41,218 bases of DNA. Origin: Bacillota bacterium (lineage in GTDB: Bacteria > Bacillota > Desulfotomaculia > Desulfotomaculales > Desulfallaceae). The translations under genes and the position numbers were made by a program. This document shows, in pieces, positions 17,469 to 35,188 of this stretch. How positions within the stretch are numbered: the first letter of the stretch is position 1; the number at the start of each line of letters is the position of its first letter. The stretch is from the NCBI GenBank assembly GCA_022360435.1, contig JAKSCU010000364.1, positions 1 to 41,218 on the forward strand, given 5' to 3'. The notes beneath the pieces are model-generated. The model was not told the DNA's origin. It was given only the letters and a program-made list of their open reading frames with translations, and searched no databases.

Positions 17469-18335
17469 TTGGACAAGAAAAAACCCACCGTGCTCACCCT
17501 CAAGCAAATGAAGCGTGAAGGCCAAAAAATCACCATGACCACGGCATACGACTATGGCATGATGTCCCAAGTGGCTAAAAGCGACATTGACATAGTCCTG
17601 GTGGGAGATTCCGCCGCCATGACCATGCTGGGGTACGAAAGCACCGTACCCATCGACCTGGAAACAATGCTCGTATTTTGCCAGGGTGTTGCCAGAGCCG
17701 GCAAGCACACCTTTCTGGTGGGCGACATGCCCTTCATGTCTTACGAAGTGAGCGTTGAAAAAGCGGTGGCCAACGCGGGCCGGATTATGAAGGAAGGCTT
17801 TATGGACAGCGTCAAGTTGGAAGGCGGCGAGCGCGTAGCCGACACGGTGGCCGCCATTGTAAGGGCGGGCATCCCGGTGATGGGTCACATCGGCCTGACC
17901 CCCCAAAGCGCCTCGCAACTGGGCGGCTTCACCGTCCAGGGGAAAGACCTGCAAAGCGCCAAGCAAATAGTCAAGGACGCCCTGGCCTTGGAAAAAGCGG
18001 GGGTATTCGCCATTATTATGGAGGTCGTCCCGGCACCGGTGGCCAAACTGGTCACCGAACTGGTGCAGGTTCCCATCATCGGTATCGGCGGGGGGAAACA
18101 CTGCGACGGGCAAGTGATGGTGCTGCACGACATGCTGGGCCTTTTTGACAAGTTTTCGCCCCGGTTTGTTAAGCGGTACGCTCATTTGGGCGCAGAAATG
18201 CAAAAAGCGCTGAACCAATTCGCCTCGGAAGTGCGCGAAGGCCGTTTTCCCAGTCAGGAACACTCTTTTTCCATGCCTGATGAGGTTGCCGGCCAACTTG
18301 TGGCCGGGCTGAAAGAGGATGGTGTCCTGAAGTGA
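17469..18335 (+). CDS. panB: 3-methyl-2-oxobutanoate hydroxymethyltransferase
   Basis: KITMTTAYDYGMMSQVAKSDIDIVLVGDSAAMTMLGYESTVPIDLETM; GHIGLTPQS; IPIIGIGGGKHCDGQVMVLHDMLGL. Confidence 0.96.
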   Translation: MDKKKPTVLTLKQMKREGQKITMTTAYDYGMMSQVAKSDIDIVLVGDSAAMTMLGYESTVPIDLETMLVFCQGVARAGKHTFLVGDMPFMSYEVSVEKAVANAGRIMKEGFMDSVKLEGGERVADTVAAIVRAGIPVMGHIGLTPQSASQLGGFTVQGKDLQSAKQIVKDALALEKAGVFAIIMEVVPAPVAKLVTELVQVPIIGIGGGKHCDGQVMVLHDMLGLFDKFSPRFVKRYAHLGAEMQKALNQFASEVREGRFPSQEHSFSMPDEVAGQLVAGLKEDGVLK

Positions 18336-19261
18336 AAATCGGCATTATCGGCGCCGGCGCGATGGGTTCGCTTTTCGGGGCCCGCCTCGCCGACGGCGAC
18401 AACCAAGTCACCTTGATCGACGTTTGGCGCGAGCACGTGAGGAAAATTAATGCCGAAGGGCTGCGGTTGGTGGGAGAAAACGGCGAAAAAATTTATCATC
18501 TCCGGGCGGTGGAATCCCCCCGGTCCCTGGGCACCCAAGATTTGGTGATCATTTTTGTCAAATCATATCACACCACAGCCGCGCTAAAAAACGCCGCAAA
18601 TTTATTGGGCCCCAACACCGCCGTGCTCACCTTGCAAAACGGCCTGGGCAATGCCGAGCTCATATCGGAGGTGGCCGGCGGCGCCGCGGTTTATGCAGGC
18701 ACAACGTCACACGGCGCCCATGTGCTGGGACCGGCCCTGGTGCGGCACGCCGGGGAGGGCGAAACAGTCATCGGGCGTTTCGGAGGCCCTAACGACCGGC
18801 GGGCGGGCGAAATAGCCGCCGCACTCACCCGCTGCAGCTTGGTCACCAGGGTGACCGACAACATAGACGGCTTAATCTGGGACAAGCTGCTGGTCAACGT
18901 GGGCATCAACGCCTTGACGGCTATTTGCGCCATTCCCAACGGGGGTCTGGTGGATTTGAAAAGCGCCGGCCTGTTGATGGAAAAGCTGGTGGCCGAGGCC
19001 GAGGGCGTTGCCCGGGCCAAGGGGATAAAACTGCCCGGCGACAACCCCCGGGCCAAGGCGCGGGAAGTGGCGGCGGCAACCGGAGAAAACCGATCTTCCA
19101 TGCTGCAAGACATGGAAAACCGACGTCGGACCGAGATCGATTTTATAAACGGGGCCATAGTTAAGGAAGGCGCGAAAGTCAATGTCGCCACACCCTGCAA
19201 TGAAATGGTGGCCTTGTTAATCAAAACCCTGGAAGAAAAGAGGTCCAAGGGCATTGCTTAA
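18332..19261 (+). CDS. panE: 2-dehydropantoate 2-reductase (ketopantoate reductase)
   Basis: KIGIIGAGAMGSLFGARLADGDNQVTLIDVWREHV; LTLQNGLGN; LLVNVGINALTAICAIPNG. Confidence 0.94.
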   Translation: MKIGIIGAGAMGSLFGARLADGDNQVTLIDVWREHVRKINAEGLRLVGENGEKIYHLRAVESPRSLGTQDLVIIFVKSYHTTAALKNAANLLGPNTAVLTLQNGLGNAELISEVAGGAAVYAGTTSHGAHVLGPALVRHAGEGETVIGRFGGPNDRRAGEIAAALTRCSLVTRVTDNIDGLIWDKLLVNVGINALTAICAIPNGGLVDLKSAGLLMEKLVAEAEGVARAKGIKLPGDNPRAKAREVAAATGENRSSMLQDMENRRRTEIDFINGAIVKEGAKVNVATPCNEMVALLIKTLEEKRSKGIA

Positions 19262-20000
19262 AGTGGCCAACAACACCCTGGAACTGTTGGAGTATATTTG
19301 TTCCAGCCGGAAAAAGGATTTCTCGTTGAGCGAGCTCAGCAGCGCCTTCCAGGTCAACAAATCCACCATGCACAGGATGTTGAGGGTGCTAACCGAACGC
19401 GGTTACCTGCGTCAAGAGCCCAAAACCGGCCGTTACCTGCTTAACTGGAAATTGCTTGAGCTGGGCGCCCAGGTTAACGCCAAGCTGGGGCTGCTGGAGA
19501 CGGTTTCACCATACATGGAGCAACTGGCCAGGGAAACAGGAGAAACTGTCAATCTGGCGGTATTGTACGATAAAAAGGTGGTTTACATTCATAAAGTGGA
19601 GAGTACCCACTTTTTAAGGACGGATTTAAGGGTGGGCATCACTGTTCCGGCATATTGCAGCGCCCTGGGCAAAGCCATTCTGGCGTGGCACACCGAGGAA
19701 CAGTTGGCCAAAATTTTGAGCGCCGAAAATCTTGTGCCTTTCACACCGCAGACCATAACCGATCCGGACCTTTTTAAGAAAGAATTAACCGCGGTTAAAA
19801 AAAGAGGGTATGCGGTGGATATAGAGGAATACATCCCGGGGATAATTTGTGTGGCCGCTCCCATTCTCAATAGGCAGGGGAAAGCAATTGCCGCCATCAG
19901 TATTGCCGGGCCGGGCTTAAGAATATCGGAAGAAAAAGTGGCGGCCGTGGGGGAACTGGTGCGCGTAAAAACCAAAGAAATTTCCAGCCGGTGCGGCTGA
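19254..20000 (+). CDS. IclR family transcriptional regulator
   Basis: N-terminal wHTH FSLSELSSAFQVNKSTMHRMLRVLTERGYLRQEPKTGRYLL; C-terminal IclR effector domain. Confidence 0.96.
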   Translation: MLKVANNTLELLEYICSSRKKDFSLSELSSAFQVNKSTMHRMLRVLTERGYLRQEPKTGRYLLNWKLLELGAQVNAKLGLLETVSPYMEQLARETGETVNLAVLYDKKVVYIHKVESTHFLRTDLRVGITVPAYCSALGKAILAWHTEEQLAKILSAENLVPFTPQTITDPDLFKKELTAVKKRGYAVDIEEYIPGIICVAAPILNRQGKAIAAISIAGPGLRISEEKVAAVGELVRVKTKEISSRCG

Positions 20001-20010
20001 ACAATTCAAT

Positions 20011-20140
20011 AAAAAAAGCGCACTAATTCAGCTCCCTTGGCGTGCGCTTTTTACTACTTTTATCCTGGAATCCGGCATAAATGGGGACATTCCTCGAAGA
20101 GGTGTGTCCCCCGACCCCTAATGGCCGTGGGTATACTTTT
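20011..20140 (+). repeat. dispersed two-hairpin repeat, copy B, interrupted by a GGGGACA palindrome
   Basis: AAAAAAAGCGCACTAATTCAGCTCCCTTGGCGTGCGCTTTTTACTACTTTTATCCTGGAATCCGGCATAAAT[ggggacattcctcgaagaggtgtgtcccccgacccc]TAATGGCCGTGGGTATACTTTT. Confidence 0.85.
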
Positions 20141-20174
20141 ATAACAGCAAAATCAAAAGGAAGGTGAATTAGTT

Positions 20175-21200
20175 ATGCTTAAACGCCAAACTTACCGGGT
20201 CCTTTGTTTAATACTTTTCGTTACATTGGTCGCCGCCGGGTGCGGCGGCGGCGACGGCAATAATCAGGGCGGCCAGGATTCAGATAAACCCGTGCTGCTG
20301 CAAGCCGGGCATGCGGTGGCCGAAGCCCACCCCTACCACCTGGGATTGTTAAAGTTCAAGGAGATTGTCGAAACAAACACAGACGGGCAAGTGACAGTGG
20401 AGATTTTCCCCAATGGAACACTGGGTTCCGAGCGCGACATGGTTGAGGGCCTGCAAATGGGCAGCATCGACGTGTTGGTCACTTCAACGGGGCCGGTCAT
20501 CAACTTTATTCCCGAAATGGGCTTGGTGGATTTGCCGTTTCTTTTTAGCAGCTCGGAACATGCCTACCAGGTGCTGGACGGTGAAGTGGGCCGGGAGTTG
20601 CTGCAAAAGTTCGATGCCATTGGCATAAAAGGCCTGGCCTTTTGGGAAAACGGCTTTCGCCACCTGACCAACTCGGTGCGGCCGGTGACATCGGTGGAGG
20701 ATATCCAAGGGCTCAATATAAGGACCATGGAAAACGAAGTCCACCAGGCGGCGTTTAAGGTCCTGGGCGCAAGCCCCACCCCCATGGCCTGGGGAGAAGT
20801 ATTCACTTCACTGCAGCAGGGAACCATCGACGGCCAGGAAAACCCGGTGCCCATTATTTACACCATGAACATTTACGAAGTGCAGAAATACCTGGCGCTG
20901 ACCGGACACTTCTATTCCCCGGCCCTGTTGCTGTTCTCCCAAAAAGCCTTTGACGAGCTGACCCCCGGGCAGCAAGAGATATGCCGGGCCGCGGCGCTGG
21001 AAGCGGCGGCCTACGAGCGCGAGAAGATTAATGAGCAAACCGAAGAGCAACTGGCCCTGCTAGAAGAAAAAGGAATGGTAATAACCAAGCCGGACGTGCA
21101 GGCTCTGCGGGAAGCCACCGGTGCGGTTTACGAGCAATACCGGGACAAATTCGGCCCGGACAGAATTGAAAAAATACTGGCCGCCGATCCCAACAAGTAA
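20175..21200 (+). CDS. dctP: TRAP transporter substrate-binding protein DctP, lipoprotein
   Basis: Lipobox VAAGCGG; TVEIFPNGTLGSERDMVEGLQMGSID; FRHLTNSVRPV..EDIQGLNIRTMEN. Confidence 0.96.
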   Translation: MLKRQTYRVLCLILFVTLVAAGCGGGDGNNQGGQDSDKPVLLQAGHAVAEAHPYHLGLLKFKEIVETNTDGQVTVEIFPNGTLGSERDMVEGLQMGSIDVLVTSTGPVINFIPEMGLVDLPFLFSSSEHAYQVLDGEVGRELLQKFDAIGIKGLAFWENGFRHLTNSVRPVTSVEDIQGLNIRTMENEVHQAAFKVLGASPTPMAWGEVFTSLQQGTIDGQENPVPIIYTMNIYEVQKYLALTGHFYSPALLLFSQKAFDELTPGQQEICRAAALEAAAYEREKINEQTEEQLALLEEKGMVITKPDVQALREATGAVYEQYRDKFGPDRIEKILAADPNK

Positions 21201-21221
21201 CCCCTGCAAACAGTTGTTTGT

Positions 21222-21266
21222 TTGAAAAGGGCGGCGCTCAATTAAGCGCGCCGCCCGGGTTTTTCA
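21222..21266 (+). terminator. terminator-like GC hairpin between dctP and dctQ
   Basis: gggcggcgctcaattaagcgcgccgcccgggttttt. Confidence 0.65.
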
Positions 21267-21291
21267 AGCAAGCAGGCAAGGAGGAAGACAA

Positions 21292-21756
21292 GTGCAGCTT
21301 CTCGACCGGTTTTGCAAGTCGGTTATATTCACGCTCTTTTTTTTAATGGTGGTAACCACGTTTTTGCAAATTATTTTTCGCTATGTATTTTCCGCCCCCC
21401 TAACCTGGTCGGAAGAACTATCCAGGTATTGCCTGGTGTGGCTGACCTTTGTCGGCGCCGCCGTGGGTCTAAGGGCGAAAATTCACGTGGCGGTGGAGGC
21501 CGTCACCAGGCTTTTACCCGCGGGGCTTAAACTGCTGATAATACGGTTTAACTATTTAATAATCACTGTTTTTGCCGCCGTCCTGGTAAAACACGGGTTT
21601 GAGTTGAGCCTTTTCAACATGAATCAGCTTTCCCCGGCCATGCATATTCCCATCGGGCTTGTCTATGCCGCCGTGCCGGTGGGAGGATTGCTCATTTTCA
21701 TATTCGCCGTGGAAAAACTTGTTTCACCCGGGGAAGAGGGAGGGGCAACCAATTGA
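21292..21756 (+). CDS. dctQ: TRAP transporter small permease DctQ
   Basis: FLQIIFRYVFSAPLTWSEELSRYCLVWLTFVGAAVGLRAKIHVAVE. Confidence 0.95.
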   Translation: MQLLDRFCKSVIFTLFFLMVVTTFLQIIFRYVFSAPLTWSEELSRYCLVWLTFVGAAVGLRAKIHVAVEAVTRLLPAGLKLLIIRFNYLIITVFAAVLVKHGFELSLFNMNQLSPAMHIPIGLVYAAVPVGGLLIFIFAVEKLVSPGEEGGATN

Positions 21757-23015
21757 CGGCGGTAGTTCTCATAGCCACCTTGTTCGGGTTACTGCTGATA
21801 GGCGCGCCCATCGCCTTTTCCCTGGGCGTGAGCTCCCTGGTCGCGCTGGTTACTACAGGCGACCTGCCCCTTTCCATAATACCGCAGCGCCTGTTTACTT
21901 CCACCGATTCTTTTGTGCTGTTGGCGGTGCCGTTTTTCGTGCTGGCGGGGGAACTAATGCAAAACGGGGGCATATCCCGCCGGCTGGTCAACTTCGCCGG
22001 CAACCTGCTGGGCTGGATCAGCGGGGGACTGGCCCTGGTAAGCATAGCCTCGTCGGCGTTCTTCGCCGCCATATCGGGCTCCTCGGCGGCAACCACCGCC
22101 GCCATCGGCAGCATTATGTACCCGGAAATGCTGAAAAGGCACTACAAACCTGATTTCGCGGCCGCCGTGCAGGCGGTGGGCGGCACCCTGGGAGTGATCA
22201 TTCCGCCCAGCATCCCCTTGATTATTTACGGCGTAATAACGGGCACTTCGGTGGGCGACCTGTTCCTGGCCGGTATCGTGCCCGGTATTTTGGGCGCTCT
22301 GGCCTACATGGCCGTGGCCTGGAACATATCCCGAAAACAAGGGCACCAGCTGGAGGCGCGCGGCAGCTTCACACAAACCTGGCAATCATTCCTGGACGCC
22401 TTTTGGGGATTGCTGATGCCGGTTATAATACTGGGGGGCATTTACGGCGGCGTTTTCACCCCCACCGAGGCCGCGGTGGTAGCCGTGGTTTACGCCACTT
22501 TGGTGGGCGCTTTAATTTACAAGGAACTGAATTTTAAGAATTTTTACCAAATATTTGTCAAGGCCGGCTTAACCAGCGCCATGATTATGCTGCTCATTGC
22601 CGCCGCCTCGGTTTTTACCTGGATTATGACCATAAACAGTATCCCCCAGGTCATTGGCCATACCGTCCTTTCCCTGACCGAAAACAAGATTGTTCTTTTA
22701 TTGCTGGTCAATTTAGTATTCCTGGTGGTGGGCATGTTCCTGGACACAGTGGCCATCATGTTATTGTTGACTCCCATTTTCTTCCCCATCGCCACTCAAC
22801 TGGGCATGGACCCGGTACATTTCGGCATTATGGCCGTATTCAACCTGGCCGTGGGCCAAATGACCCCGCCATTTGGGGTCTGCCTGTTTGTTTCCTCCGG
22901 CATCACCAGGGTGCGGGTGGAAAAGTTGTTTCGCAGCGTGCTGCCCTTTTTACTGGCGGCCCTATTGCTAATACTACTGGTGACTTACGTGCCGGCGCTA
23001 AGCTTGAGGTTTTAG
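21753..23015 (+). CDS. dctM: TRAP transporter large permease DctM
   Basis: LLAVPFFVLAGELMQNGGISRRLVNFA; SGSSAATTAAIGSIMYPEM; IIPPSIPLIIYGVITGTSVGDLFLAGIVPG. Confidence 0.97.
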   Translation: MTAVVLIATLFGLLLIGAPIAFSLGVSSLVALVTTGDLPLSIIPQRLFTSTDSFVLLAVPFFVLAGELMQNGGISRRLVNFAGNLLGWISGGLALVSIASSAFFAAISGSSAATTAAIGSIMYPEMLKRHYKPDFAAAVQAVGGTLGVIIPPSIPLIIYGVITGTSVGDLFLAGIVPGILGALAYMAVAWNISRKQGHQLEARGSFTQTWQSFLDAFWGLLMPVIILGGIYGGVFTPTEAAVVAVVYATLVGALIYKELNFKNFYQIFVKAGLTSAMIMLLIAAASVFTWIMTINSIPQVIGHTVLSLTENKIVLLLLVNLVFLVVGMFLDTVAIMLLLTPIFFPIATQLGMDPVHFGIMAVFNLAVGQMTPPFGVCLFVSSGITRVRVEKLFRSVLPFLLAALLLILLVTYVPALSLRF

Positions 23016-24607: not shown

Positions 24608-25594
24608 TTACGGACTGAGCACAACTTTGATAGCCGCGTCGTCCTTGTCGACCAGTTCAAAGGCTTCCTTGAGCTGGTGGAGTTTAAAATGGTTGGTTAT
24701 TAACGGGCGTATGTCCACCAGACCCTGCAGTACGGGACGCAAAGCCTCCGGAGCCCATATGTAACGCTGCTGGAACGTATGGTGCACCAGGCAAGTGTTA
24801 ATGAACTCAATACCGTCGTCATGCCACTTACTGATATTAAGCGTGACCGGGGTTGTAATCCAGCTGTACCAAACAAATTTTCCATTGCGCCTGACCATGT
24901 CGGTACACATGTTAATTGACTGTTCGGTACCGGCCGCCTCTATAACCACGTCCGCCCCTTTGCCGCTGGTTAAACTCGCCACAACCTCAACGGCGTTCTC
25001 CCGGGCGGCGTTTACGACCACGTCGGCGCCCAGTTTTTCGGCCAGCTTCAGTTTACCTTCCAACACATCCACCACCACCACCTTTTCAGCCCCTTTTTTC
25101 TTGACGCACTGGGCGATAACCTGGCCGGCAAAACCGGCGCCCATCACCACCACCGTGTCTCCCAACTGCACTCCCGAGTTCAAGCCGGAGTACATGGCGC
25201 AGGCTATGGGTTCGCCCAGCGAGGCCAAATCCATGTCCATCCCCTCGGGCACGGGCTGCAATTCCCAAACTTTGGCTTTGAAAAACCGGGCCAAATTATT
25301 ATTCCAACCAAAGGCCATTACCTTGTCGCCCGGTTTATATTCCCGCACCCTGGCGCCCACTTCCACCACGGTGCCGCCGCTTTCATGCCCCAGGTAAAAT
25401 GGAAATCCGGGTTCCTGCCGAAACTCGGACGTTTTGGCGGGCAGCAGACCCCGGTAAAAATTTTTGTCGGAACCACAAACGCCCATCAGGTGGTTTTGCA
25501 CAATCACCTCGTCGTCGCCACAGGCCAACCGGCGCTCCACAAGGTCAATGTGATAAGGACTCTGAAGCACCGCCGCTAAGGTTGCAACAGCCAT
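24608..25594 (-). CDS. zinc-type alcohol/polyol dehydrogenase (MDR superfamily)
   Basis: NHLMGVCGSDKNFYRG; LGHESGGTVVEVGARVREYKPGDKVMAFG; VVVMGAGFAGQVIAQCVKKKGAEKVVVVDV. Confidence 0.92.
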   Translation of the reverse strand: MAVATLAAVLQSPYHIDLVERRLACGDDEVIVQNHLMGVCGSDKNFYRGLLPAKTSEFRQEPGFPFYLGHESGGTVVEVGARVREYKPGDKVMAFGWNNNLARFFKAKVWELQPVPEGMDMDLASLGEPIACAMYSGLNSGVQLGDTVVVMGAGFAGQVIAQCVKKKGAEKVVVVDVLEGKLKLAEKLGADVVVNAARENAVEVVASLTSGKGADVVIEAAGTEQSINMCTDMVRRNGKFVWYSWITTPVTLNISKWHDDGIEFINTCLVHHTFQQRYIWAPEALRPVLQGLVDIRPLITNHFKLHQLKEAFELVDKDDAAIKVVLSP

Positions 25595-25595
25595 T

Positions 25596-26741
25596 TTACT
25601 CCCTCCCCAAATTGATGCTTATTTTTAAAATCCTAAAACTCCGCTCTACGGCGTCGGCCGTCAGAGCCCGCGCTTTTTGCATGGCTTCGGCGTCGCTGAT
25701 AGGCCCCGGCGCTATGGTGATTATGGAATCGATACCCATATCGTAAAGTTTTTCCGCTCCGGGACCGACGCTCCCCGCCACCGCCAGCACCGGCAGTCCG
25801 CGGCGGCGCGCCCGGCCGGCCACGCCGGTCGGCACTTTGCCGTAGGCCGATTGAGCATCGACACGGCCTTCTCCGGTAATCACCAGGTCGACTTGGGCCA
25901 TAAGCCGGTCAATTTTAATGGCGTCCAGCACCAGTTCAACGCCCGGCGCCAGCTCCGCGCCGGTGAAAGCCACCAACCCGGCGCCCAATCCTCCCGCCGC
26001 CCCGCTGCCGGGAATCCCCGCCACGTCAATCCCCAGTTGTTTTTTAATTTCTGCGCCGAAATGCTCCAGCCGGCGGTCAAGAATATCTACCATTTCCGGC
26101 GTGGCGCCCTTTTGCGGGCCGTATACCGCAGCTGCGCCCGCCGGCCCGCACAGCGGGTTTCGCACGTCACAGGCAACCTTGATATTAACTTCTTTCAGCC
26201 TGGAATCCAGATCCGAGACGTCAATTAGACGCAATTTGTCCAAACCGGCGCCGCCAAATCCCAGTTCTTTCCCGGCGCCGTCCAAAAGGCGCGCACCCAG
26301 GGCCTGCGCCATACCGGCCCCGCCATCGTTGGTGGCGCTGCCCCCAATGCCTATGATGATGGCGGTTGCGCCGCTGTCAAGGGCGGCCTTGATTAGTTCC
26401 CCCGTGCCATAAGTGGTGGTCCACCTGGGATCGCGCCTGTTGGCCGGAACCAGGGTCAGGCCCGAAGCCGAGGCCATCTCCAGCACAGCGGTGCCGTCCG
26501 GCAGCATGCCGAACTCGGCCGGCACGGGGGAACCCAGCGGCCCCGTCACTTGGACCGGCACCATCTTGCCGCCGGTGGCGGACACCATAGCTCTTGCCGT
26601 CCCCTCACCACCGTCGCCAACCGGCACCGCCGTTATTTGAGCGTCGGGATAAACCCTCCTGATCCCGGCGGCGACCGCTTCGGCCGCCGCCATGCTGCTA
26701 AGGCTGCCTTTGAAAGAATCCGTAGCAATCAATATTTTCAT
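25596..26741 (-). CDS. glycerate kinase (GlxK/GarK type)
   Basis: MKILIATDSFKGSLSSMAAAEAVAAGIRRVYPDAQI; IGIGGSATNDGGAGMAQALGARLLD; ATG at 26741. Confidence 0.96.
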   Translation of the reverse strand: MKILIATDSFKGSLSSMAAAEAVAAGIRRVYPDAQITAVPVGDGGEGTARAMVSATGGKMVPVQVTGPLGSPVPAEFGMLPDGTAVLEMASASGLTLVPANRRDPRWTTTYGTGELIKAALDSGATAIIIGIGGSATNDGGAGMAQALGARLLDGAGKELGFGGAGLDKLRLIDVSDLDSRLKEVNIKVACDVRNPLCGPAGAAAVYGPQKGATPEMVDILDRRLEHFGAEIKKQLGIDVAGIPGSGAAGGLGAGLVAFTGAELAPGVELVLDAIKIDRLMAQVDLVITGEGRVDAQSAYGKVPTGVAGRARRRGLPVLAVAGSVGPGAEKLYDMGIDSIITIAPGPISDAEAMQKARALTADAVERSFRILKISINLGRE

Positions 26742-26766
26742 GTCGCACCACCAATTTGCTGGGAAA

Positions 26767-27459
26767 TTAATCCGGGCTGATAAAATATTTTTTACTGGGC
26801 CTGCCCACAACCCCGTAATCCAATTCCACCGCCACTTTGTTGCTGGCCAACAGGTACTCCAGGTAACGCCAAACCGTGATTTTGGACATGGACAACCTGT
26901 CGGCTATCTCCTGGCAGGACAAGGGGCTGTTTTGTTTGAGCAAAAAGCCCACAATATGATTCAGAGTCAAATAGTGCACGCCTTTGGGCAATTGGTCATG
27001 AGTTTTACATCGGTTGGGAGCCCGTAAACCATTGTTCATTTTGTCAATTTCTTCCTGGGTGAATTCTTGTTTCCTACTCAATATCGACCGTAATTTTAAA
27101 TAATTGCGCAGAGACTTTTCCAGCCGCTCAAGGTTAAAAGGTTTAATAATATAATCGATGGCGCCGTAACGCAATGTCTCGTAAATGGTGTTTGCATCCT
27201 TGGCGGCGGTAATCAATATTACGTCGCAGGGCAGCCCCTCCTCCCTGATGGATTGCATAAGTTTCAAACCGCTGTTGCCGGGCAGGTAAATATCCAGCAG
27301 CACCAGATCGGGCCGCAGTCTTTTAATTTCCGCCAACCCGGATTTTTCATTGTAGCTGATGCCAACCAACTTAAAAGGAGGTATCTTTTCCGTCATACGC
27401 CTGTTGATGTCCGCTACCATCGGGTCGTCTTCCACGATGTACACTCGAACACTTCGCAC
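26767..27459 (-). CDS. CitB/DcuR-family response regulator
   Basis: VYIVEDDPMVADINRRMTEKIPPF...DLVLLDIYLPGNSGLKLMQSI; C-terminal HTH LSCQEIADRLSMSKITVWRYLEYLLASNKV. Confidence 0.94.
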   Translation of the reverse strand: MRSVRVYIVEDDPMVADINRRMTEKIPPFKLVGISYNEKSGLAEIKRLRPDLVLLDIYLPGNSGLKLMQSIREEGLPCDVILITAAKDANTIYETLRYGAIDYIIKPFNLERLEKSLRNYLKLRSILSRKQEFTQEEIDKMNNGLRAPNRCKTHDQLPKGVHYLTLNHIVGFLLKQNSPLSCQEIADRLSMSKITVWRYLEYLLASNKVAVELDYGVVGRPSKKYFISPD

Positions 27460-27472
27460 CGGCTTTTCCCCC

Positions 27473-29059
27473 TTACTGGCTGTTCAAAAGGTTTGGAATC
27501 CAGATGGTGAAAGTGGTTCCCCCCGAGCCTGTTTCCACACTGATAGTCCCCTGGCTCAACTTGATCCTTTTGTAAAGATTGTTTAAACCGTACCCCATTC
27601 CGGTTTGCTTAGTGGTAAAACCAGGGTCGAAAATCCTGTCTTTAATATGCTCATCAATCCCCTGCCCGTAATCTTTAACCCAAATGTTGATCCAGCGCTG
27701 GTCTTGATAAATGGCAACCTCGACTTGCTTGCGCCCCGGCGGCATGTCTTTGACGGCTTGCAAAGCGTTGTCCACCAGGTTGCCCAGCACAACGGTAAAA
27801 AAGTTCTCTTCAAAATGGTCGGGCAGGTAGCGCAGCCGGCTGTTTCCATCCACGTGAAAGCCGATGTGCATTTCCTTGGCCTCACTGGCCTTACCCACCA
27901 AAAGACCCACTACGGCGGGGTTCTTGATGTTATCTATGATGAAACTGATTAAAGCCTGGTCCCGGTTGGTGAGGTTGGTGATAAATTTTTGCGCCTCGTC
28001 ATAATCACCGAGCTGAATCAGGCCTGAAACAATATGCATCTGGTTCATAAACTCGTGGGTTTTGGCCCGCAGCGCGTTGACCACTTTTTTGACCCCTGTT
28101 AATTCCTGGGCTAAACGGTTAACTTCCGTCAGGTCCCGAAAAGTGGAAATAGCGCCAACAACTTCCCCGGCCACTATCATGGGCACCCGGTTGGTCAAAA
28201 CAGTGGTGTTGTTCATGATCATCGGCTGGTCATACTCGGCCTGGCGCGTTTCCATAACCAGCGGCAGCCTTGAGTTGGGCAGCACATCCGTAATGTTGCG
28301 GCCGATGATTACAGTTTCCGGACTAAACAGCTTTTGAGCCGTTTGATTGATCACGGTGACCCTGTTGTTTACGTCAATGGCGATGATGCCCTCGCGCACC
28401 GACTGCAGCATTGATTCTCTTTCTTCAAGCAATGTCGCTATCTCCCGCGGTTCCATGCCAAACATGGAACGCTTGATGCTGAACGCCAGCAACCAGGAAA
28501 AGATAACCATGGAAACAAAGCCGAAGGGAATGACGATATAAAAAATGCCAAACACCTTGGACATAATTACTTTGATGTTGGGTTCGAAAAAGCCCACCGC
28601 CACGGCGCCCACTTGTCTCTGGCGCAGGTCGTAAATGGGCACGAAGCCTCGAATGGAGGGACCGGATATGCCCACCGCCCTGGAAGTGTAGGTATGGCCC
28701 GCCAGGGCCGGCCCCTCATCGTCACCGGTGAAATGTTTGCCGATAAGTTCGGTATTGGGATGGGAATAACGAACACCCCCCATGTTCATATACACCACAA
28801 AAGCGGCATCGGTTTTACGCACTATTTCGGAAGCAATCACCTGTAATTTGTCGGCCGGGTTATCGTCGGCATACGCCCGCCTGGCGTCGAGGCGGGCCGA
28901 GGCCAGATGGGCGATATCCTTGGCATGGTTTTCCATTTGCCCTTGCATGCTTTCCCGAATGGAGTAATAAAAGATAAGCATGCTTACGTTAAGGGTTAGC
29001 ATGCCGATGGTAAGGGTGAAAATAAAAACCTTAACCTGCAGGGAAATGTTTTTCCACAA
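27473..29059 (-). CDS. CitA/DcuS-family sensor histidine kinase with periplasmic sensor and PAS
   Basis: Two TMs, AKTHEFMNQMHIVSGLIQLGDYDEA H-box, HATPase GIDEHIKDRIFDPGFTTKQTGMGYGLNNL. Confidence 0.94.
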   Translation of the reverse strand: MWKNISLQVKVFIFTLTIGMLTLNVSMLIFYYSIRESMQGQMENHAKDIAHLASARLDARRAYADDNPADKLQVIASEIVRKTDAAFVVYMNMGGVRYSHPNTELIGKHFTGDDEGPALAGHTYTSRAVGISGPSIRGFVPIYDLRQRQVGAVAVGFFEPNIKVIMSKVFGIFYIVIPFGFVSMVIFSWLLAFSIKRSMFGMEPREIATLLEERESMLQSVREGIIAIDVNNRVTVINQTAQKLFSPETVIIGRNITDVLPNSRLPLVMETRQAEYDQPMIMNNTTVLTNRVPMIVAGEVVGAISTFRDLTEVNRLAQELTGVKKVVNALRAKTHEFMNQMHIVSGLIQLGDYDEAQKFITNLTNRDQALISFIIDNIKNPAVVGLLVGKASEAKEMHIGFHVDGNSRLRYLPDHFEENFFTVVLGNLVDNALQAVKDMPPGRKQVEVAIYQDQRWINIWVKDYGQGIDEHIKDRIFDPGFTTKQTGMGYGLNNLYKRIKLSQGTISVETGSGGTTFTIWIPNLLNSQ

Positions 29060-29282
29060 GTCACCGGCGCCCCTTTCGATATTTCAGCTTTATGTTTAGC
29101 ATAACAAGTTTTTATTACGGCGACAACGAATTGGGCCATGTAATATATGAAATAAATTATAATTTTTTAAATTTATCAAAAAATTAAAGAATTAATACAG
29201 GTGGCTTTTTGCGGCGGTAAGAAACATTTAGGCCATAGAGGTGGCAACACCAAAGCACAATAAAGCCAAAGGAGGGAAAAAA

Positions 29283-30008
29283 ATGATTATCGATCCCGAG
29301 ACATGTATGGGTTGCCAGGCCTGTCAGATTTACTGCCCCATGGGCGCCATCGCGTACCTGCCGGACAGCGGAATCTGCCGGGTTAACCTGGACGAATGCG
29401 TGGAGTGCGGCATTTGCCTGAGGCCCGACCCCTGTCCCACCGACGCCCTGCAACAACAGGAACTGGACGAGATACGCGAACTGCGCCGGGCCTTTTCCAA
29501 CCCGCTGGTTCCCCACAAGAGCACCTCGGTTCCCGGCCGGGGCACCGAGGAAATAAAAACTAACGAAGTTACGGGGCGCTTTAAGCGGGGACACGCGGGT
29601 GTCGCCGTGGAATTGGGCCGGCCCGGCACGGGCACCAGATTTAAAGACGTGGAAACGGTGGCCATGGCCATCGCCAAATGCGGTGTCAGCTTTGAGCCCC
29701 ATAATCCCGTCACCGCCCTTATGACCGACGTCAAGACCGGTAAAATGAGGGATGACGTTTTAAACGAAAAAGTGCTTTCGGCTATTGTTGAAATGGTTGT
29801 AACGGCGGACAATCTGGCCGGCGTGCTCAAAGCCATAAAAAATGTGGCCGGCCAACTGGATACCGTTTTCAGCCTGGACCTGGCTTGCCGGGTCAACCCC
29901 GACAACTCCGCCCCGGTGGAAGAAATCGCCCGCAGCGTTGGGTTTATGCCTTCCATTAACGGCAAAACCAACGTCGGGTTGGGCAGACCGCTAGCAAAGG
30001 AGGATTAA
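29283..30008 (+). CDS. 4Fe-4S dicluster protein with uncharacterised C-terminal domain
   Basis: CMGCQACQIYCPMGAIAYLPDSGICRVNLDECVECGICLRPDPCPTDAL; RBS aaaggagggaaaaaa before ATG. Confidence 0.9.
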   Translation: MIIDPETCMGCQACQIYCPMGAIAYLPDSGICRVNLDECVECGICLRPDPCPTDALQQQELDEIRELRRAFSNPLVPHKSTSVPGRGTEEIKTNEVTGRFKRGHAGVAVELGRPGTGTRFKDVETVAMAIAKCGVSFEPHNPVTALMTDVKTGKMRDDVLNEKVLSAIVEMVVTADNLAGVLKAIKNVAGQLDTVFSLDLACRVNPDNSAPVEEIARSVGFMPSINGKTNVGLGRPLAKED

Positions 30009-30009
30009 C

Positions 30010-30645
30010 ATGACCCACACCCTGCACAGGCACGGCAGCGCCGAGAATTTGCAAAACGACTACATTGTGTTTGCCATTGCCGCTCAAACGGTGAACGCCA
30101 AGGGAAAAGCGCGCGTTTTCGCAGAGTTTTTTAAAATAATAGAAAAATACAACTATGCTTTTTGTGGCGACATGAAGACGGGTAACGAATACGCCGTGGG
30201 CAGAGAGGCCATCCGCCAGGGATTTAGGGACAATTCCATTGTGCACGCGGTTTTCACCGACAAAGAAGAAGTCGCCCGGGTACTCAAGGAACTGGCCGAA
30301 GCCGACCTGGGCCTCTCCATCGTGGTGTCCGGCATTCTGGAACACGCCGACGCCTGTTGCCGCAAAGCGGGTATACAAAGACACACCATTGAGTGGTCGT
30401 TGGGCATTCACGGCAACACCCAAAAGCTTCCCCAGGATAAAGAGACGCTGGAAATCAGCACCATGTGCGGCCACGGCATGGTCGCTTTTAGCCTGATTAA
30501 CCACATGGTTAAGGAAATCAGGGCGGGGCGCGTAACCACGGCGGAAGCCGCCAGGGAGTTGGCGGCCCAATGTCACTGCGGAGTGGTTAACCCGGAACGG
30601 ACCTCACAATTGCTTCAGGCTATGGTCACAGAATACAACAACTAA
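30010..30645 (+). CDS. uncharacterised Cys/His-rich protein coupled to the 4Fe-4S protein
   Basis: RBS aaaggagg, 1 nt gap; EHADACCRKAG, TMCGHGMVAFSLINHMV, AAQCHCGVVNPER. Confidence 0.85.
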   Translation: MTHTLHRHGSAENLQNDYIVFAIAAQTVNAKGKARVFAEFFKIIEKYNYAFCGDMKTGNEYAVGREAIRQGFRDNSIVHAVFTDKEEVARVLKELAEADLGLSIVVSGILEHADACCRKAGIQRHTIEWSLGIHGNTQKLPQDKETLEISTMCGHGMVAFSLINHMVKEIRAGRVTTAEAARELAAQCHCGVVNPERTSQLLQAMVTEYNN

Positions 30646-30900: not shown

Positions 30901-31902
30901 ATGTTTAAAAAACACCTTTCTTTGGTATTAGCGGCTCTGGCCTTGTTGGCGGTTGGCTTGCTGGTCGCCGGGTGCGGAGGGGAAAAGGCCCCGGACAACG
31001 ACGCGGCCGCCGGCTACCCCGAACGACCGGTGGAAGTCATTGTGGGTTGGGGCGCCGGCGGCGGCACCGATACCTTTGCCCGGGCCATTACCAAACCGGC
31101 CTCGGAAATTTTGGGGCAGCCCATGCCGGTTAAAAATATGTCCGGCGCGTCCGGCGCCATCGCGGGAGATTATATCACCCAGCAACCGGCCGACGGTTAT
31201 ACCATGTGGGCCATGGGCTCCAACTACGCGGTAAACGTCGCCCTTAACCGGACACCCCACGACCTGAGCGCGTATACCCCCATCGCGCGGATACAACACG
31301 ATACCGCCATGCTCCAAGTGGCCGAAAACGGTGCATTTCAGACAATCGACGAGCTGGTGGAATATGCCAAAGCTAATCCCGGTAAAGTCAAAATGGGGGG
31401 CACCGGCGCCGCCAGCTTCGATGAGGTGGTAGTGGCCCTGTGGGAAGAAGCGGCGGGTGTGGATGTAAATTACGTGCCTTACGAAAAAGGCGGCGCCATG
31501 CACTCTGCTCTAATGGGCGGTCACGTCGACGTCATGTTTGAAGAACTTGGCTCCACGGCCAGCCTGGTGGAAGAGGGTTCGATCAAACCAATCCTGGCTT
31601 TTACCAACAAAAAGATCGAAAGTATGCCCGACCTGCCCATCTGTGCTGACAAGGGATGGGATGTGACCCTGGGCAACTGGCGCGGAATCATGGTCAAAAA
31701 AGGCACTCCGGAACCCGTGATCCAACAACTTCAGGATGTTCTCGAGCAGGCCTATAACGACTCGGGATACAAGGAGTTTGAAAAACAGGGGTACTTGAAC
31801 CTGCGGGCGGGCTATCAAAACAGCGATGATTTCGCCAAGCATATCCAGGAAAATATCGAGCAATACCGGAAAGCGCTGGTCAACCTGGGCTACGTTAAAT
31901 AG
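30901..31902 (+). CDS. tctC: tripartite tricarboxylate transporter substrate-binding protein (TctC/Bug), lipoprotein
   Basis: Lipobox LLVAGCGG; YPERPVEVIVGWGAGGGTDTFARAI. Confidence 0.96.
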   Translation: MFKKHLSLVLAALALLAVGLLVAGCGGEKAPDNDAAAGYPERPVEVIVGWGAGGGTDTFARAITKPASEILGQPMPVKNMSGASGAIAGDYITQQPADGYTMWAMGSNYAVNVALNRTPHDLSAYTPIARIQHDTAMLQVAENGAFQTIDELVEYAKANPGKVKMGGTGAASFDEVVVALWEEAAGVDVNYVPYEKGGAMHSALMGGHVDVMFEELGSTASLVEEGSIKPILAFTNKKIESMPDLPICADKGWDVTLGNWRGIMVKKGTPEPVIQQLQDVLEQAYNDSGYKEFEKQGYLNLRAGYQNSDDFAKHIQENIEQYRKALVNLGYVK

Positions 31903-31946
31903 AGCCACAGCCAAAGATTGTTTAATTTGTTAAACTGGCTGCGCCA

Positions 31947-32010
31947 CGGGGTCGGTTCCCAGTATTCCCTGCGGTAGATGCTTTGCGCCGCGGGAACACA
32001 GAACCGTCCC
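31947..32010. repeat. REP-like imperfect palindrome (GGGGACGGTTC family) between tctC and tctB
   Basis: CCACGGGGTCGGTTC ... GAACCGTCCCCCTGG. Confidence 0.65.
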
Positions 32011-32165
32011 CCTGGCTCCGCCGACTTTAGAATTTACTGTGGCAGCAGCGTCTCCTAAAAAACAAACTTGCGAAAGATGTTTGGTGTTATCAAGAGGACG
32101 CGCCGGAGTTTAGCGCCAAGAGCGAGCGATTCTTCAGAGCAATTTTCCGCGCAGGGGGTGAAATT

Positions 32166-32648
32166 ATGCTTGCCGAACTTGGACTGGGTATTTTTATCTT
32201 AGCCTTTTCAGGGATCATGTTTTACCAAACCACCCAGTTGGACTTTAACAGCAAAGTGGCCAGCATCGGGCCTGATTACTGGCCTCAAATCATTCTTGGC
32301 GGCATGTTGGCTTTGTCGGCGCTGTTGATTGTGGACACCGTCAGGCGTAAGGGGATTTTAGCGGGCGGCAAGCCCGCAGGGCGCCCCCCAAAAGCCCAAA
32401 ACCTCTGGTTCACACTGGCCTTGATGCTTATGTACACATATGCCATGCAATATTTGGGCTTTGTACTGGCCACGCTTTTGTTTTTACTGGCTGCAATGTG
32501 GATGCTGGAATTAAGGAAACCTAAAACCCTCGCGGCACTGGCCCTGGGCGTCACCACCGCGCTGGTGGTGCTGTTCCCCATTCTGATGATGATCCCACTG
32601 CCGCGTGGCACCGGATTATTTAGAACCATCAGCCTGCTGTTTTATTGA
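32166..32648 (+). CDS. tctB: tripartite tricarboxylate transporter TctB family protein
   Basis: Four-TM protein; FYQTTQLDFNSKVASIGPDYWPQIILGGMLALSALLI. Confidence 0.9.
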   Translation: MLAELGLGIFILAFSGIMFYQTTQLDFNSKVASIGPDYWPQIILGGMLALSALLIVDTVRRKGILAGGKPAGRPPKAQNLWFTLALMLMYTYAMQYLGFVLATLLFLLAAMWMLELRKPKTLAALALGVTTALVVLFPILMMIPLPRGTGLFRTISLLFY

Positions 32649-32666
32649 TCGGAAAGGGGGTGTTTT

Positions 32667-34157
32667 ATGTCCGACCTATTATACGCGGTAAACGCCATTG
32701 CTCAGCCGATGAATTTTTTGATCCTGGTGGCCGGAGTGACGCTGGGCCTGCTTAGCGGCGCAACCCCCGGCGTCAGCGGCACCATGATGGTGGTTTTGTT
32801 GATTCCGTTGACCTACTCCCTTGAACCGGACGCGGCTTTCCTGCTGCTTTGTTCCGTTTATTGCTCGGCGGTTTTCTCCGGGTCCATCAGCGCCATATTG
32901 TTTCGCACTCCCGGCGCGCCGGAAGCCGTGGCCACCTCTTTGGACGGCTATCCCATGGCCCAGGGGGGACAAGCCCCCCTGGCCCTGGGTATATCGGTAT
33001 TCAGCTCGGCCACCGGCGGCCTGGTGGGAACACTATTGCTGATGGCCATTGCCCCGCAGTTGGCCAAAGTGGCTCTAAAATTCGGCCCGCCGGAATACTT
33101 CGCCTTGGCCGTGCTGGGCTTGAGCGTAATAACCGTAATGGGAGCCAACAACTTAATCAAATCTTTCCTGGCCGCCGGCTTCGGCTTGTTTTTAGCCACC
33201 GTGGGCATAGACGCCATGACGGGCGTAGCCCGGTTTACTTTTGGCGTCACGGGGCTGATGGGCGGTATTGATTTCATCCCGGTCCTGATTGGCTTATTTG
33301 CCGTATCCGAGGTGTTGCGCCGTTTTATGGGCGATTTGACCGTGCGGGAAAAAATGGCCCGCGTCAGCTCCAGGCTGCCGGATTTAAAAATGATGCGTAC
33401 GCTTGCCGGCACCATCGCCAGGTCCTCCCTTATCGGCACCGCCATAGGCATACTGCCGGGTATCGGGGCCACCACGGCCTCCATAGTCAGTTACAGCGAG
33501 GCCATGCGCTGGTCCAAAACGCCCGAAAAATTCGGCACGGGACACTCCGAAGGCATTGCCGCTCCCGAATCAGCCAATAACGCCGCCGCCAACGGAGCCA
33601 TGGTGCCGCTGTTAGCTCTGGGCATACCGGGCAGCGCCACCACCGCGGTTATGCTCGGAGCGTTCATCCTGCACGGTGTCAAACCGGGACCCCTGATGTT
33701 TACGGAACAGTCGCATCTGGTACACACCATTTTTGCCGGGTTGTTTTTATGCAACTTTCTTATCTTGATTATATCCAAGCCTTTTATCAGCGCCTTTGCC
33801 AATATTATTAGAATTCCCTACTATTTCTTGGGGCCGGTGATTTTGCTGCTTTGCATCATAGGTTCCTTTGCCATCCGCAACAATGTGCTGGACATCTGGC
33901 TAACCATGCTTTTTGGTTTTGTGGGTTATGTAATGGAAAAACACCAATTCCCGCTGGCTCCGGTTATCCTGGGCTTGGTGTTGGGTGGACTGGCCGAGCA
34001 GGAGTTAAGGCGCTCGCTGATAGTTTCCGGCGGCGATTGGGGAGTATTTTTCCAAAGCCCCATTTCAGCCGTTTTACTGCTAGCCGCAGCTGTTTCCGTA
34101 GTTTTATCCTTAGTTAGTTTGCTGCGGAAAAAGAAACAAACCGCGGCGGACGCCTAA
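32667..34157 (+). CDS. tctA: tripartite tricarboxylate transporter permease TctA
   Basis: [94 protein letters not shown]. Confidence 0.97.
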
Positions 34158-34189: not shown

Positions 34190-35188
34190 ATGGCCAAAGT
34201 GTTTTATGACCGGGATGCCGACTTAAACTTGTTAAAAGAAAAAAAAATCGCGGTGCTGGGTTACGGCAGTCAGGGGCATGCCCAGGCATTAAACCTGAAG
34301 GACAGCGGGCTGGATGTTCTGGTGGGGCTGCGCCCGGACAGTCCCAGCCGGAAAAAGGCGGCGGAAGCCGGCTTGGAATCGCTACCAATACCTGAAGCTT
34401 GCGCGGCGGCCAACATTATTCAAGTGTTGCTACCCGACGAGTTGCAGGCCCAGGTGTACTCGGAGCATATAGCCCCCCACCTGGCCGCGGGTAAAGTGCT
34501 GATGTTTTCGCACGGTTTCAATATTCACTTCCACCAAATCGTGCCGCCCGCCCATATAGACGTGCTGATGGTGGCCCCCAAAAGTCCCGGTCACCTGGTG
34601 CGCAGAATGTATACCAATGGAATGGGTGTCCCCGCGCTGCTGGCGGTGCACCAGGATTTCACCGGCCAAGCCAGAGACTTGGGGCTGGCCTACGCCAAGG
34701 GCATAGGCTGCACCCAGGCGGGAGTTTTCGAAACCACTTTCAGGGAGGAAACTGAAACCGACCTGTTCGGGGAGCAGGCGGTGTTGTGCGGCGGCCTGAC
34801 CGAGTTGATTAAGGCCGGATTCGACACCCTGCTGGAAGCCGGGTACGCGCCGGAGATGGCTTATTTCGAATGCCTGCACGAAATAAAACTAATCATCGAT
34901 TTGATTTACGAGGGCGGGCTTAAGGCCATGCGCCACTCGGTAAGCAATACCTGCGAATATGGCGACTATACCCGCGGGCCCCGTATCGTCACCGGCGAGA
35001 CAAGGCTGGAGATGAAAAGGATCTTGCAGGAAATCCAGGCCGGCCGTTTCGCCAGGGAATGGCTGCTGGAAAATAAAGCCAACCGCCCGGTATTCAACGC
35101 CATTAAAAAAAGGGAAAGCGAGCTGTTGGTTGAAACTGTGGGTGAGGAAATCCGCAGCATGATGCCGTGGTTAACTAATAAAACTTGA
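34190..35188 (+). CDS. ilvC: ketol-acid reductoisomerase (class I)
   Basis: [104 protein letters not shown]. Confidence 0.97.

Follow-up and report, generated by a model that had tools for sequence, protein, structure and literature searches.

Two linked genes for a ferredoxin-domain protein and a Cys/His protein without assigned family near organic-acid transporter genes in Bacillota

What is the role of two adjacent genes, one for an iron-sulfur protein and one for a Cys/His protein without assigned family, that lie between a divergent two-component system and the genes of an organic-acid transporter? The question arises from a stretch of 41,218 nucleotides (the window) of a Bacillota bacterium of the family Desulfallaceae (contig JAKSCU010000364.1, forward strand), in which an earlier note, made from the sequence alone, had suggested a redox enzyme acting on the imported acid. 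The two genes are referred to as P1 and P2, and the features of the window are as follows, with the evidence in brackets.

24608-25594, minus strand: zinc-dependent dehydrogenase (HMM; family recurs in 11/51 loci compared)
25596-26810, minus strand: glycerate kinase (HMM; family recurs in 5/51 loci)
26767-27459, minus strand: response regulator, divergent from the pair (HMM)
27473-29059, minus strand: CitA/DcuS-type sensor kinase, divergent from the pair (HMM)
29270-29275, plus strand: Shine-Dalgarno AGGAGG of P1 (sequence)
29283-30008, plus strand: P1, 241 aa, 2[4Fe-4S] ferredoxin domain and a domain of about 180 aa without assignment (ORF, Pfam, homologues)
29304-29336, plus strand: P1 cluster motif 1, C8-x2-C11-x2-C14-x3-C18 (Pfam, homologue alignment)
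29397-29438, plus strand: P1 cluster motif 2, C39-x2-C42-x2-C45-x5-C51-P (homologue alignment)
29463-30005, plus strand: P1 C-terminal domain, without Pfam, NCBIfam or PDB relative (alignment of homologues)
30010-30645, plus strand: P2, 211-aa Cys/His protein without family (ORF, homologue alignment)
30466-30474, plus strand: P2 C153-G154-H155 (57/57 homologues)
30571-30591, plus strand: P2 C188-x-C190-G191-x2-N194 (C188, C190 and N194 in 57/57)
30901-31902, 32166-32648 and 32667-34157, plus strand: TctC, TctB and TctA of a tripartite tricarboxylate transporter, spanning 30901-34157 (HMM)
34190-35188, plus strand: extra ketol-acid reductoisomerase (KARI, IlvC) (HMM)

The two proteins and their invariant residues

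The coordinates of both genes and the 1-nt gap between them proved exact. The P1 stop codon (TAA) occupies 30006-30008 and the P2 ATG at 30010 is preceded directly by the Shine-Dalgarno sequence AAGGAGG, while the P1 start was set at ATG 29283 rather than in the longer GTG frame at 29241 because of the Shine-Dalgarno at 29270-29275. Residues 1-60 of P1 form a ferredoxin domain recognized by several Pfam models above their curated cut-offs, including PF00037 (33.2 bits, cut-off 21.1) and PF13237 (30.5 bits, cut-off 25.5), so that the two ferredoxin clusters first read from their motifs are backed by Pfam, and all eight of their cysteines are essentially invariant among 56 P1 sequences. The C-x2-C-x2-C-x5-CP spacing singled out earlier is found in the window and its four cysteines are kept in 56/56 sequences, but the spacing of the last cysteine and the proline vary in some copies. 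Likeness to 2[4Fe-4S] ferredoxin proteins (Fer4, Fer4_10; RnfB, PorD, FwdF) covers P1 residues 1-60; unlike these, the window P1 has five residues before the last cysteine of motif 2 and carries a fused domain of ~180 aa that those families do not match. Invariant in this C-terminal domain among the 56 sequences are G85-R86-G87, E90, K92, N94, G112-R113, P142, E170, K228 and G234, of which the Arg, Lys and Glu residues are candidates for binding a carboxylate substrate.

Among 57 P2 sequences the N-terminus MTHxLHR is nearly invariant, as are M1, T2, H3, H6 and H125 individually, and R7, D17, C153-G154-H155, C188, C190 and N194 are present in all 57. The three motifs first taken as suggestive of metal or cofactor binding fared unequally: CGHGM is reduced to its CGH (57/57), with G156 in 37/57 and M157 in 45/57; CHCG keeps C188 and C190 (57/57) and G191 (55/57) but has H189 in only 13/57; and ACC is no feature of the family (C116 in 20/57, C117 in 41/57). 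C153, H155, C188 and C190, possibly together with H3, H6 and H125, may hold a metal or Fe-S centre.

Pfam, NCBIfam and PDB were searched with single sequences and with profiles and member scans built from 8 and from 56-57 homologues. P2 gave nothing above threshold in the three databases over the 57 members scanned, only scattered weak matches. For P1, the Pfam and NCBIfam matches listed for the window protein fall in the Fer4 region, family-wide Pfam matches outside Fer4-type models are weak, and the PDB matches listed cover residues 1-70 only, in agreement with the earlier description of a C-terminal domain without family. A known enzyme family, which the earlier note had named as evidence against its own reading, was found neither for this domain nor for P2. 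Among candidates for P2, XPA (E 0.013) was dismissed since a short 'tmCGH' stretch underlies the match, and DUF2099/methanogenesis marker 8 (PF09872) matched 1/57 members at E 0.021, below the cut-off; in the window genome PF09872 had no match over the cut-off and a weak match elsewhere than the pair. Genes of the arylmalonate decarboxylase/Asp-Glu racemase superfamily can occur near TTT genes; the listed matches of the 57 P2 members include no Pfam of this type. AlphaFold models from a three-sequence input (the window, L014 and L015) were of low confidence (pLDDT 59.5 for P2, 48.9 for P1), and Foldseek of the low-confidence P2 model against PDB returned no significant match (best E 0.025).

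The P2 residues bear on a first alternative, that the pair is a non-redox Fe-S lyase, dehydratase or epimerase of hydroxy acids, in which C153, C188 and C190 of P2 would hold a [4Fe-4S] cluster with an open iron site and the ferredoxin domain would only keep that cluster active. Aconitase-type enzymes use a [4Fe-4S] cluster with an open iron site on hydroxy acids, and P2 has exactly three invariant cysteines plus the invariant H155. The Fe-S hydro-lyase families (aconitase, class I fumarase/tartrate dehydratase, IlvD) are, however, absent among the Pfam and NCBIfam matches listed for P2, and with the gene neighbours discussed below we consider this alternative unlikely.

Linkage and co-variation of P1 and P2

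P2 homologues were found in 3/16 genomes of the window's family (none in the other three genomes of its genus), 7/113 genomes of the class, and, by profile search, 26/399 sampled genomes of the phylum, spread over 22 genera; a genome has at most seven copies. A single-sequence scan of genome contigs had recovered two loci only; the wider set comes from the profile search and comprises about 57 pairs, all from one phylum, aligned as 57 P2 and 56 P1 rows. No relative of the pair was found among the viral contigs or in the plasmid collection searched, and a literature search returned no description of it.

Every locus examined has both P1 and P2, next to each other, with 57 cases of P1 followed immediately by P2 and gaps that are mostly overlapping or near zero and mostly ≤20 nt. 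A lack of conserved linkage was the other outcome that would have told against the earlier reading, and linkage was complete. Chance is excluded, since many genera have homologous pairs and the two genes lie side by side at each locus, and the conserved adjacency together with co-variation across genomes marks P1-P2 as a two-gene functional unit. Pairwise identities of the P1 C-terminal domain and P2 correlate at r = 0.85, and those of the ferredoxin part with these two at 0.61 and 0.58, values that contain shared ancestry and are no proof of contact. As the first correlation exceeds those of the ferredoxin part, we infer from the sequences that the P1 C-terminal domain and P2 would form the functional core, with the ferredoxin domain as the wire. 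The two core parts have no detectable mutual homology (hhalign probability 0.8%).

The closest relative of the pair (77% and 75% identity) is at locus L010, in another family of the same order, which shares with the window ADH, glycerate kinase, response regulator, kinase, P1, P2, TctC, TctB and TctA; the whole cassette is therefore conserved or mobile. At L015 (81-856, the same as L100) both pair genes are truncated and a TctA fragment follows directly, which reflects either decay of this copy or faulty assembly of the metagenome-assembled genome.

Transporters, regulators and redox enzymes around the pair

The window neighbours are as first described, namely a divergent CitA-type kinase (sCache_3_2, PAS, SPOB_a and HATPase domains) and response regulator (receiver and HTH_11) on one side and TctC-TctB-TctA on the other; in the P2-tctC interval no plus-strand intrinsic terminator and no Rfam RNA were found. 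Neighbouring frames were clustered over 51 loci, with representatives of most families checked by HMM and the rest, read from sequence, serving as leads. TctCBA is the commonest partner, with TctA in 31/51 loci (each time on the strand of the pair and no more than 6 kb away), TctC in 29/51 and TctB-type proteins in 22/51; a TRAP permease is found in 8/51, TctA or TRAP in 35/51, and some loci have no recognized organic-acid transporter. TctA is encoded by 22/26 pair-bearing genomes vs 102/373 others (Fisher odds ratio 14.6, p ~8e-9), a p-value that overstates the evidence, as the genomes are related. The loci, too, are partly related and not statistically independent. On the P2 tree, transporter context changes state 12 times (shuffled mean 17), TRAP 7 times and AOR (aldehyde:ferredoxin oxidoreductase) 6 times, and because contexts change several times the association of the pair with transporters and AOR probably arose repeatedly. 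The recurrent linkage with TctCBA or TRAP that had been put forward for checking thus holds statistically and extends from TctCBA to TRAP.

The reading of the pair as an oxidoreductase is supported by the recurrence nearby of AOR (8/51 loci), CooF/AOR-type ferredoxins (8/51), FNOR (5/51), POR (4/51), zinc dehydrogenases and HIBADH (6/51), and of the glycerate kinase, PdxA (3/51), LarA (3/51), IlvD (4/51) and FAH hydrolase (5/51) families; PanB is found in 4/51 and KARI in 3/51. A non-redox enzyme would not be expected to have such dedicated electron-transfer partners (FNOR, CooF-like, AOR, POR) repeatedly beside it. The lyase alternative can point to neighbours that include dehydratases (IlvD/EDD), aconitase/LeuC-like proteins, LarA-family racemases and sugar-acid enzymes, which make hydroxy acids a plausible substrate class.

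In five loci (L085, L086, L091, L107 and L108) the pair has a CooF-type ferredoxin and an FNOR-type flavoprotein as neighbours. Proteins resembling CO dehydrogenase (CODH-like) were identified by HMM in three of them, and at the same position L108 has a frame of equal length:

L086, 6411-7976: CODH-like protein
L085, 7198-8715: CODH-like protein
L107, 11244-12515, minus strand: CODH-like protein

In at least three of the five loci these proteins match TIGR01702 over the N-terminal cluster region. In alignment with CODH, the L086 protein keeps the N-terminal cluster region and has A and N in place of the Cys of GCNN and TGC, and the L107 protein retains both cysteines. The two positions lost in L086 are active-site positions of the CODH C-cluster. 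The CODH-like proteins of the pair operons are possibly CODH-derived electron relays, and the ferredoxin-linked neighbours of the pair fit a redox role. Mini-CooS and CooF/FNOR sets have been described (PMC8776680, PMC11338639), and the sections of these two papers that were consulted do not mention the P1-P2 pair; the five loci likewise carry a CooF-type ferredoxin and FNOR, but P1 and P2 themselves are no parts of CODH.

A second alternative, that the pair is a maturation or electron-supply factor for tungsten or nickel enzymes (AOR, CODH-like, LarA) with no enzymatic activity of its own, draws on the loci with AOR (eight), with CooF-like/FNOR (five, mostly with a CODH-like protein) and with LarA-family proteins (three). 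As AOR, CODH-like and LarA proteins are not nearby in most loci, the window included, and TctCBA is found there instead, it is regarded as very improbable.

The catabolic neighbours vary widely among loci, which counts against an oxidoreductase. The single-contig genome G133 has three nearly identical P2 copies, of which one (L076) adjoins TRAP and AOR, one (L077) TctBA, FAH and ADH, and one (L078) no recognized transporter. Such varied neighbours and near-identical copies in different contexts are as compatible with a general accessory role as with a substrate-specific enzyme, and they are the main weakness of the oxidoreductase reading; further points against it are that the sequence searches, and the fold search with the P2 model, revealed no similarity to an enzyme, and that some loci are without a recognized organic-acid transporter. 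The varied neighbours and near-identical copies are also what a third alternative builds on, that P1-P2 is an accessory sensor of redox state or iron that controls the transporter or neighbouring enzymes, to which may be added that the weak P2 model resembles, non-significantly, small ferredoxin-like alpha/beta domains, a fold shared by ligand-sensing domains. Yet Pfam and NCBIfam found no DNA-binding, receiver or membrane domain in P1 or P2, the invariant charged residues resemble an active site, and the loci often have regulators of their own (two-component systems, sigma-54 activators and GntR, the last in 18/51 loci and commoner than the CitA-like kinase system in 5/51). A sensor is thus decidedly unlikely.

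Proposed function and substrates

Tentatively, and at somewhat less than even confidence, we favour P1-P2 as a two-subunit Fe-S oxidoreductase of a hitherto uncharacterized kind that acts on imported hydroxy- or oxo-acids, in line with the enzyme of imported acids proposed earlier. P1 and P2 would be the two subunits of a complex in the anaerobic catabolism of hydroxy- or oxo-carboxylic acids, which would enter by binding-protein-dependent secondary transporters (TctCBA in the window). The P1 C-terminal domain with P2 would be the catalytic unit and the N-terminal 2[4Fe-4S] domain of P1 the electron wire, with electrons presumably flowing between the catalytic site and the ferredoxin/NAD pool of the cell, in some loci via dedicated partners (CooF/CODH-like/FNOR, AOR or 2-oxoacid:ferredoxin oxidoreductase).

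Since the nearest plasmid relatives of the window TctA adjoin a 3-oxo-tetronate kinase and an aldolase, analogy suggests that this transporter imports hydroxy acids. TctCBA/TRAP-linked hydroxy-acid operons, e.g. for tetronate, have the same transporters as the pair loci, together with dehydrogenases, kinases and aldolases; the two nearest plasmid TctA relatives adjoin otnK, but those two operons are without the P1-P2 pair. The window KARI is 68% identical to another KARI in the genome (G000:C198), is matched by KARI near the pair in two other loci (L015 and L075), and may act on a catabolic 2-oxo or hydroxy acid. Upstream of the cassette, at 17469-23015, lies a single run of genes for PanB, ketopantoate reductase, an IclR-like regulator and a TRAP transporter; PanB is close to the pair in L008, L009 and L079 too. 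The glycerate kinase, zinc dehydrogenase, second KARI, PanB, ketopantoate reductase, TRAP transporter and TctA relatives point to small branched or polyhydroxy acids as candidate substrates in the window.

A bolder version, which we hold to be doubtful, makes P1-P2 the founder of a new class of anaerobic Fe-S oxidoreductases whose catalytic fold and metal site would both be new. The enzyme would pass electrons between ferredoxin and many different imported hydroxy- and oxo-acids, in some lineages by way of a CODH-derived protein without its former CO site that would act solely as an electron relay.

The invariant residues and the size of 1.4 kb make the pair easy to express and test. Present in about 6% of the sampled genomes of the phylum and without an entry in Pfam, NCBIfam or PDB, it represents a substantial part of anaerobic organic-acid metabolism still without assignment. 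Should the pair be an oxidoreductase, TTT and TRAP uptake, for which the substrates are mostly unknown, would be linked directly to electrons at the level of ferredoxin.
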